Assembly: GCF_000621165.1 (NCBI RefSeq)
Contig: NZ_JHZA01000018.1
Location: forward strand, 1-64,000
Direction: 5' to 3'
DNA length: 64,000 bases
From: Enterovibrio calviensis DSM 14347
GTDB taxonomy: Bacteria; Pseudomonadota; Gammaproteobacteria; Enterobacterales; Vibrionaceae
In this document: positions 839 to 10,805 of the stretch, piece after piece
Layout of the letters: every line of letters begins with the position of its first letter
Position numbering within the stretch: position 1 is the first letter of the stretch
Notes under the pieces: model-generated
Told to the model about the DNA's origin: nothing
Seen by the model: only the letters and a program-made list of their open reading frames with translations
The model's database searches: none
Position numbers and translations under genes: made by a program

Positions 839-1039
839 ATATAACAAAGCATTTAAGACGGATTCTCAACGCTTGGCGATTTCTGCTTAGCTTGGCTTCA
901 GTGCTAAATGTGGCAAGGTTTAAGCTTGGGTGGTCGCGTTGTTCACCACTTAATGCGGCTACATGGATCCCCCCGTACGTCAAACATCCGCAAGACATTC
1001 TGAGATATGTTATGGACTGCCGCTCTACATTCGGCCTTT

Positions 1040-1212
1040 ATCTGACTCTCGTCATGGCCCTGATGACATTGCGCGGTTGCAGTGCCTTATTCGTTAGAAG
1101 GCATCAAATGTGCCCGCCGCATTAACAGGCTCTCTGCAAATGGTCTTAACCTATTCTCATCAGCTGCGTCTGCAATGACCCGGTTGGGGTGTTTCTCTAC
1201 GTGACTTGGGTG
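1040..1212 (-). ncRNA. Candidate guide RNA (seek/bridge RNA) of the IS1111-type element
   Basis: Non-coding DNA immediately 3' of the transposase gene, where IS1111-type elements encode their target-choosing RNA. Read on the minus strand it contains TTAATGCGGC (1125-1116), identical to the attC bases left of the insertion (950-959). About 20 nt later comes TAACGAAT (1096-1089), complementary to ATTCGTTA at the right junction (2300-2307). The second segment sits in the loop of a TGCCTT/AAGGCA hairpin. Ends are not determined; the call rests on family knowledge plus these matches. Confidence 0.5.
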
Positions 1213-2235
1213 TTAGGCCGCGTAGTCTTGATATTCAGTTTGATTGTGTAATAACGCCCAGATAATTCGTGCGTTCTTAGCGGCGAGTGCGACAATCGCT
1301 CGGTTCATGCCTCGCCGTTCAAGTACATCTCGTCCCCAATTACTGAGCCTGTCCTGCTTCTCACCGATATTGGTGATTGCGGCTCGAGCACCGTGGACGA
1401 GTAATGTTCGTAGGTATTTGTCGCCATGTTTAGTGATCCGCCCAAGTCTGGGCTTACCACCGGTGGAATACTGTTTAGGGACTAACCCTAGCCAAGCGGC
1501 AAAGTCTCGACCTGAATCAAATTGTTCCCCTTTGCCGATAGTGGCGATAATTGCGGTAGCCGTTTGAGGGCCGATACCTCTTACTTTCATGATGCGCATA
1601 GCACTAGGACTCGCTTTTACCACAAGATCAAAGCTTTGCTCTGCTTCACTGATGCGCTGATTAAGCGTTTGAAGATGTTCGAAACAGTCAGCTAAGACCG
1701 CACGTGCAATGTCGGGCAAACCGTTTTCCGCCGCTTCAAGAATGAGTGGCACTTCACGATGAATAGCAGCGCGACCTGTGGGAAAAACAATACCGAACTC
1801 AGCCAGCAGAGCGCGAATACGGTTGATGAGAGCCGTGCGCTCTCGTACCCAGTGTTCACGCATTCGGTGAATGGACAAGATAGCTTGTCGCTCAGGCGAT
1901 TTAACGGGGACAAAGCGCGTATTGGGACGCTGAACCGCTTCACAGATAGCGATGGCATCGTTAAGGTCATTTTTGCCTTTGGTACGATACGGTCCCACAT
2001 ATTTCGCCGCCATAATGCGGGCATCATGACCGAGTTTAATGAACTCTCTCGCCCAATAATGCGCACCACTGCAAGCTTCGAGACCTATACGCATAGGTGG
2101 CATATTTGCTAATTTATACAGCAATTTAGCGCGAGACACCGATTTGTGAAGAGTGACTTTTCCTCGCTCATCGACAGCGTGCAATGAGAAGTGGTGTTTG
2201 GCGAGGTCAACACCGCAAAAGATTAAAGAAGACAT
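1213..2235 (-). CDS. IS110-family transposase, 340 aa
   Basis: DEDD-type recombinase of the IS110/IS1111 family. The N-terminal RuvC-like domain shows D10 (CGVDLAKHHF), E53 (GLEACSGAHYW) and D90/D93 (KGKNDLNDA). The C-terminal Transposase_20 domain shows VRGIGPQTATAIIA, AAWLGLVPKQ and TGGKPRLGRITKHGDKYLR. I chose the ATG at 2235 because GGAGG lies 5 nt upstream. A longer reading frame begins at 2301 inside the inverted repeat and is unlikely to be used. Full length for the family and no frame breaks, so probably active. It moves the element together with an element-encoded guide RNA. Confidence 0.92.
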   Translation of the reverse strand: MSSLIFCGVDLAKHHFSLHAVDERGKVTLHKSVSRAKLLYKLANMPPMRIGLEACSGAHYWAREFIKLGHDARIMAAKYVGPYRTKGKNDLNDAIAICEAVQRPNTRFVPVKSPERQAILSIHRMREHWVRERTALINRIRALLAEFGIVFPTGRAAIHREVPLILEAAENGLPDIARAVLADCFEHLQTLNQRISEAEQSFDLVVKASPSAMRIMKVRGIGPQTATAIIATIGKGEQFDSGRDFAAWLGLVPKQYSTGGKPRLGRITKHGDKYLRTLLVHGARAAITNIGEKQDRLSNWGRDVLERRGMNRAIVALAAKNARIIWALLHNQTEYQDYAA

Positions 2236-2341
2236 GGAACCTCCGGTTTTGAATATGGCACTTAAGTGTGGCAAATCCACATGAGGGGGGATCCATGTCA
2301 TTCGTTATGTGATAGGAGCTCCCATCAGAACTCCTAGTAAA

Positions 2342-10605: not shown

Positions 10606-10805
10606 CAAACAAACTGTTTAAGAGTGATTCGCAACGCGTGGCATTTTTACCATGCGTTGGTTTTAGTGTTTTAGGTGGTATGCGGGAGCTTCGGTATTGC
10701 GTTGCTCACACCTTAACAGGACTACATGGATCCCCCCGTTCGTCAAACATCCGCAAGACATTCTGAGATATGTTATGGACTGCCGCTCTACATTCGGCGT
10801 TGTCA
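10602..10805 (+). repeat. attC site interrupted by an IS end fragment
   Basis: VCR-like left part at 10602-10720 (TTAACAAAC, CGCAACGCGTGGC) and R' GTTGTCA at 10799-10805, with 78 bp of IS sequence between. Confidence 0.78.
10721..10798 (-). mobile_element. 78-bp end fragment of the IS1111-type element
   Basis: The stretch from TACATGGATCCCCCC to CATTCGGC matches 959-1036 of the intact copy with a single clear difference (GTTCG against GTACG). It holds the outer repeat and the distal part of the non-coding end but none of the transposase. It lies at the same place in an attC, between the right arm and R'. Confidence 0.85.

Follow-up and report, generated by a model that had tools for sequence, protein, structure and literature searches.

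How does an insertion sequence come to lie exactly between the body of an attC site and its R′ box? The window, that is, the whole stretch of 64,000 nucleotides of Enterovibrio calviensis DSM 14347 analysed here, starts with an integron cassette array, and one attC in this array is interrupted by an IS1111-type insertion sequence of 1,344 bp with an open transposase gene. The features of the interrupted site and of the element are as follows.

842..959, plus strand: body of the interrupted attC, with the R″ box TAAC and the 3′ arm TTAATGCGGC; the partner arm scores 4.0, a value reached by 0 of 30 shuffles
2304..2309, plus strand: R′ box GTTATG of the interrupted attC, severed by the element
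960..2303, minus strand: whole IS1111-type element, with a 7-bp left and a 3-bp right extension outside the inverted repeats, flanked by the attC arm and by GTTATG
2285..2303, minus strand: left end, GAATGAC and the subterminal repeat ATGGATCCCCCC
1213..2235, minus strand: transposase gene of the DEDD type, 340 aa, with GGAGG upstream of the ATG at 2235
960..974, minus strand: right end, the subterminal repeat GGGGGGATCCAT and GTA

The R′ box is found only at 2304 because the element sits exactly between it and the attC body. The element, which the sequence-only reading had also recognised as IS1111-type, has its borders at 960 and 2303. On the minus strand, the order is GAATGAC, ATGGATCCCCCC, the transposase gene, a non-coding region of 253 bp (960-1212), GGGGGGATCCAT and GTA. 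Subterminal inverted repeats of about 11-13 bp with extensions of 7 bp (left) and 3 bp (right), as well as a long non-coding region downstream of the transposase gene, are what is expected of an IS1111 element. The transposase has the motifs D10, E53, D90/D93 and GLVPKQYSTG, in keeping with the 330-350 aa DEDD enzymes of this group and their GL-P----S/TG motif. A second in-frame ATG lies upstream at 2301, inside the left end, and the 362-aa ORF matched the Pfam families DEDD_Tnp_IS110 (3.5e-15) and Transposase_20 (1.1e-24). The genome has one full copy of the element and six partial matches, one of them at window 10703-10801. At 10724-10801, the remnant of a second copy consists of the right end and about 65 bp of the non-coding region; it stops before the guide described below and adjoins an attC-like arm, TTAACAGGAC. 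Matches to the element were found in 10 of the 18 genomes of the genus searched, and a scan of a named collection put copies in Enterovibrio baiacu and in Grimontia species among the nearest.

Does the non-coding end carry the address of the insertion site? As the sequence-only reading had noticed, TTAATGCGGC on the minus strand at 1125-1116 is identical over 10 bases to the plus-strand attC arm at 950-959, and the match grows to 11 bases, TTAATGCGGCG, in the empty site reconstructed by joining the flanks with a script. It had also pointed out that TAACGAAT (1096-1089) is the reverse complement of ATTCGTTA at 2300-2307. This is correct; given the borders 960 and 2303, ATTC at 2300-2303 is part of the element itself, and the target share of the match is limited to GTTA(T), which begins at 2304. 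When the non-coding end was shuffled 20,000 times in 2-base blocks, a word of at least 11 bases in common with the 32-bp empty site appeared in 0.235% of the shuffles; for words of at least 10 bases the value was about 0.95% in an earlier run in which one base of the site was wrong. With such chances a single copy is suggestive, and it is the comparisons with other copies that bear the weight.

Folding the non-coding end by covariance with homologous elements, a check that had been proposed with the original observation, yielded compensatory changes that back a target-loop fold. The predicted parts of the RNA are as follows.

1014..1151, minus strand: predicted guide RNA segment (seekRNA/bridge RNA) of 138 nt, a 24-pair structure with two internal loops
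1115..1125, minus strand: target guide 1, TTAATGCGGCG, complementary to the attC arm that flanks the right end
1100..1114, minus strand: inner hairpin closing the target loop, GGCA/TGCC, with GGTA/TACC, GACA/TGTC and GGCG/CGCC in relatives
1089..1097, minus strand: target guide 2, CTAACGAAT, including TAAC of the left flank and GAAT of the left end
1063..1069, minus strand: donor loop strand 1, ATGTCAT, the complement of ATGACAT in the left end
1024..1030, minus strand: donor loop strand 2, ATGTAGA, identical to the ends as joined in the circle, ATGTA|GA

The alignment of 19 relatives supports a target loop of the internal type, in which GTTAATGCGGCG lies opposite TTCTAACGAATA. The 24-pair fold has 99.1% of its cells paired and 21 two-sided changes, against 5.3 in shuffles; by helix, two-sided changes occur in three of the six, two do not vary, and one varies without any two-sided change. 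Further pair types number 9, fewer than in shuffles (11.9). The TGCCTT/AAGGCA hairpin, which the sequence-only reading had drawn around the second segment, exists as letters but was ruled out as the fold in favour of the internal loop: only 84.1% of its cells are paired, its second pair fails in 7 of the 19 relatives, and neither a compensatory pair nor a two-sided change was seen among them. Rfam at its gathering thresholds gave no matches in the window.

I then searched for distant relatives with a covariance model of the RNA (R1). Genomes with a match numbered 13 among the 369 of the class, 11 among the 398 of the phylum and 23 among the 394 of the order. These groups overlap, and the own genome is in each of them; some of the matches retain the scaffold and not the guide. 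From 158 listed matches (19 + 67 + 72), 138 were entered, the other 20 being omitted by hand as second views of entered copies; 11 of the 138 lacked a clear right end or fell outside the guide region, which left 127 matches with 42 distinct guides. The comparison of guide bases with the flanks of other copies, likewise proposed beforehand, was carried out on these. For the right flank, the mean match of a guide to its own flank is 6.52, compared with 4.34 when flanks are permuted, and 0 of 100,000 permutations reached the observed value, although the distinct guides in these permutation tests are not all independent by descent. The same 0 of 100,000 was obtained for the 22 guides outside the TAACGA class, the 20 inside it and 23 taken one per cluster, and the match also holds in three draws of random copies. 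Examples are the loci L118 (TATTGTAC), L111 (CGAGAGCA), L114 (ATAGGACA), L147 (TAAATAACT) and L105 (CTGATGCGA). The match is not equally good everywhere, since the own flank is the best match for 19 of the 42 guides and not the best for 23, and 12 guides score below 6, with L059 at 3. For the left flank, which is compared with the second strand of the loop, borders were set from the repeats, copies without a found left end were dropped, and L067 was removed by hand; the own match is 4.57 compared with 3.92 (0 of 100,000 permutations, 35 distinct guides), and 2 of 100,000 permutations reached the value for the 15 guides with flanks other than AAC. Loops that match both target strands and change with the target, which define a seekRNA or bridge RNA, are thus seen here as sequence covariation.

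The second internal loop behaves in a similar way toward the ends of the element. Its two strands track the own ends with mean matches of 6.31 vs 4.81 and 5.27 vs 4.27, each reached by 0 of 100,000 permutations over 26 distinct elements (copies without a found left end were dropped, and L067 and L115 were removed by hand). The junction ATATA|AG goes with the donor strand ATATAAG, ATATA|TC with ATATATC, and ATATA|TG with ATATATG. A second loop that matches the donor ends is a mark of bridge RNAs and is present here as covariation. This agrees with PMC11208160, in parts of which IS110-type bridge RNAs are described as possessing a donor loop, on hand inspection of three elements per IS110 group, IS1111 included.

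Is the guide also variable among close relatives? In the near clade, represented by 54 non-redundant copies from Vibrionaceae and relatives after removal of two copies without a right end, TTAATGCGGCG is exact in 43 of 54 copies and CTAACGAAT in 51 of 54. A copy of Enterovibrio baiacu (L071/L008/L034), whose non-coding end is 96% identical, keeps the guide and occupies GCCCTGTTAAG instead of GCCGCATTAAG. Retention of the same two segments in unrelated targets had been named as one observation that would speak against a guide. The segments are indeed kept across sites, yet the sites are related: all 40 distinct left flanks have TAAC as their last bases, and of 51 distinct right flanks next to elements with this guide, 40 have an arm of the form TTAAnnnGGC. 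Where relatives occupy other targets, their segments differ as well. Among the 51 flanks, the arm is TTAACGCGGC in 18, TTAACAGGGC in 8, TTAATGCGGC in 6 and something else in 19, one of which is a join within a transposase gene rather than an attC. Of 48 distinct right flanks, 31 have a partner arm beginning with TAACAA, 22 beat all 30 shuffles, and 10 have no GTTA in range; attC is therefore not proved for every copy. The finder used here looks for TAACAA and a local arm match; an earlier one, with thresholds of 6-8, missed the type of the present site, whose own arm scores 4. These flanks show the fixed insertion point and orientation in attC that characterise IS1111-attC elements.

Because the occupied sites vary at the three central bases, the 11-base match in the window is partly the luck of this site. 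The occupied sites were compared with 72 empty attC sites from 1.08 Mb of fetched DNA, found with a pattern that requires the arm to begin with TTA and end with C, a bias favouring the empty sites. TTAAnnnGGC is found in 40 of 51 occupied and 23 of 72 empty sites (Fisher p 2.9e-7), the two sets coming partly from different places and genomes. When U-G and G-T wobble is allowed, 26 of 51 occupied vs 8 of 72 empty sites fit the guide throughout the ten positions, again with sets partly from different genomes; inside the TTAAnnnGGC class the difference is modest (25 of 40 vs 8 of 23, p 0.03). The third central base is changed from C to G in 13 of 51 occupied sites, which is a plain mismatch. From these site counts, I infer that the guide may tolerate wobble. 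If so, TTAATGCGGC and TTAACGCGGC would be the best target arms, TTAACAGGGC a lower one, and TTAATTGGGC and TTATTAGAAC poor ones, each before GTTATG.

Another IS1111-type element was found in the genome G163 (L134), with the guide TATGCTCACA and the second strand AAGGTGAT. It sits in the same attC arm as the first element, 12 bp past the latter's border, and G163 has the two nested within a single attC. Its RNA region has matches in 25 of 324 Vibrionaceae genomes, and this type of guide fits TTAAGG|TGTGAGCA (L134:145-282, minus strand; L197-L214). A motif scan covered 25 loci (L197-L221); among the 11 shown, nine have both flanks, and in all nine the left flank is TTAAGG and the right flank TGTGAG; for the two without a found left flank, the right flanks are TGTGAA and GGTGAA. 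My interpretation is that there are two IS1111 lineages whose guides would read the same attC at two points.

It might be asked whether the transposase, or the folded single-stranded attC hairpin, picks the target, the RNA segments being kept for folding or protein binding and merely resembling attC. The near clade lends itself to this view, as its segments are almost constant though right flanks vary, and its targets look like attC, a folding site. However, relatives with the same scaffold and other guides occupy flanks matching their own guide, outside attC too; the second lineage, with a different guide, inserts into the attC arm 12 bp from the first; and, as reported in parts of PMC11187229, an ISEc11 insertion was moved to an unstructured site by a matched change of guide and flank. 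I regard such a choice by protein or hairpin as very improbable. Still harder to believe, to the point of being negligible, is an accidental capture of target DNA, in which the segments would date from a time when the element took flanking attC with it and would have no guide role. The exact 11-base identity with the present site suits a capture, whereas the persistence of the segments in copies at other attC variants, their opposition in a conserved internal loop and the guide-flank covariation of the relatives do not.

A variant of the main reading, which does not exclude it, is that RNA guides the insertion but only the target loop matters, the downstream part being a processing scaffold. 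According to the sections of PMC11187229 on ISEc11, an 82-nt form is enough, whereas what the longer one does "remains to be established". Against this stand the tracking of the right-end/left-end junction by both strands of the second loop and the donor loop described for IS110-type bridge RNAs in parts of PMC11208160, and I consider the variant unlikely, though clearly less so than the two explanations above. The preferred reading, to which I give a probability of roughly 0.93, is that this is an IS1111-attC insertion sequence whose RNA (1151-1014) would guide insertion through a target loop and a donor loop. It holds because the guides, on average, track their own flanks and the second loop tracks the joined ends. 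The proposal of the sequence-only reading, that the two segments form the target-binding loop of a seek/bridge RNA reading the R′ end of attC, is likewise backed by the guide-flank covariation in distant relatives.

Under this reading, the ends of the element would join in a circle, as predicted from the sequence, and create a promoter (TTGACG, 16 bp, TAGAAT) that may drive the transposase gene and the non-coding end together. The RNA from 1151-1014 would bind the DEDD transposase. Its first internal loop would pair with both target strands over the insertion point, TTAATGCGGCG with the attC arm and CTAACG with the R′ side, and its second with the joined ends of the element. Such pairing would lead to entry mostly at attC sites of the form TTAAnnnGGC|GTTA, in one orientation, with the R′ box split from the attC body. 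Since the insertion separates the two, such elements should freeze cassettes.

An IS1111-attC group was reportedly treated by Tetu and Holmes in 2008 and by Post and Hall in 2009. The system is not new in kind, as IS1111-attC elements with seekRNAs have been published: parts of PMC11187229 describe attC homing of IS1111 elements, seekRNAs matching both target strands for ISKpn4 and ISPst6, a predicted seekRNA for ISPa25 and experimental proof of RNA-guided insertion for ISEc11, which moves with an 82-nt RNA, too short for both loops of the 138-nt segment found here. ISKpn4 and ISPst6 share with the present element the DEDD transposase, the subterminal repeats with 7- and 3-bp extensions, the downstream non-coding region and insertion at one end of attC, and their seekRNA is described there as matching both target strands in the same order, with the complement of the top strand first (PMC11187229, in part). 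The present element differs in clade and attC type (Vibrionaceae, TTAAnnnGGC|GTTA), the likeness being drawn from the published description. The bridge RNA of IS621 (IS110 group) also has two internal loops, for target and donor, each reading both strands, as far as described in parts of PMC11208160. In the present element, the RNA lies in the right end after the gene, the subterminal repeats are longer, and the order of the two guides is reversed, as stated for IS1111 vs IS110 in parts of PMC11187229. Among the plasmid matches listed, the nearest with IS names are ISShdy1 (48-51% transposase identity) and IS5708 (46-49%). The locus annotated as IS5708 (L115) contains R1 matches, while the R1 search of the ISShdy1 locus (L116) gave no RNA match with E up to 1. 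On a related plasmid locus (L118), the guide is the same as that of one L115 match, and the right flank fits that guide and is not attC.

What seems new is the detail that the guide of the Vibrionaceae clade is nearly constant while the occupied attC sites vary, chiefly at the three central bases, changes at two of which wobble would tolerate. Nothing was found on Vibrionaceae guides, the wobble reading or a second attC address in a search of titles and abstract openings that left most subscription journals outside. A broader proposal, which I would accept or doubt with equal ease, has three parts: one near-invariant guide may read a class of attC ends, since U and G, which make up two of the three bases at its centre, can pair or wobble with both transition states; separate IS1111 lineages may have evolved their own RNA addresses on one attC, at the R′ border and 12 bp inside the arm; and the long RNA may be bispecific, its second loop reading the circle junction, for which the short seekRNA in the literature offers no explanation. 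A near-fixed guide with varied targets, beside relatives of the same scaffold with other guides, amounts to a natural experiment on RNA-guided insertion, in which it can be tested how far mismatches are tolerated, what the long RNA does and how several elements converge on integron sites.

Several further observations were made. The own genome has an empty attC with the arm TTAATGCGGC before GTTA, at which all ten guide bases match (L192:16963, on contig C7 near 274962); this contig also holds an integron integrase. Four variant RNAs (L009, L033, L078 and L080) have a loop strand 16 bases longer, with TAACGCC in place of TAACGAAT. TAACGCC matches the empty target and not the junction of flank and element, possibly biasing these elements toward insertion over excision. 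A further family (L157-L159), in genomes that also hold the main clade (G284, G313 and G240), has the guide TTTAATTGGG; among three of its sites inspected, the arm is TTAATTGGGC in two and TTAACAGGGC in the third. In G240, two copies on different contigs with different attC flanks (L170 504-2229 and L171 537-2262) have a 366-bp tandem of the 3′ part, comprising the gene end, the RNA and the right end, so that both the RNA gene and the right end are present twice. Within the gene, GAGGAATG, a sequence that resembles the left end, adjoins the inner of the two right ends, and the arrangement may have moved as a unit.
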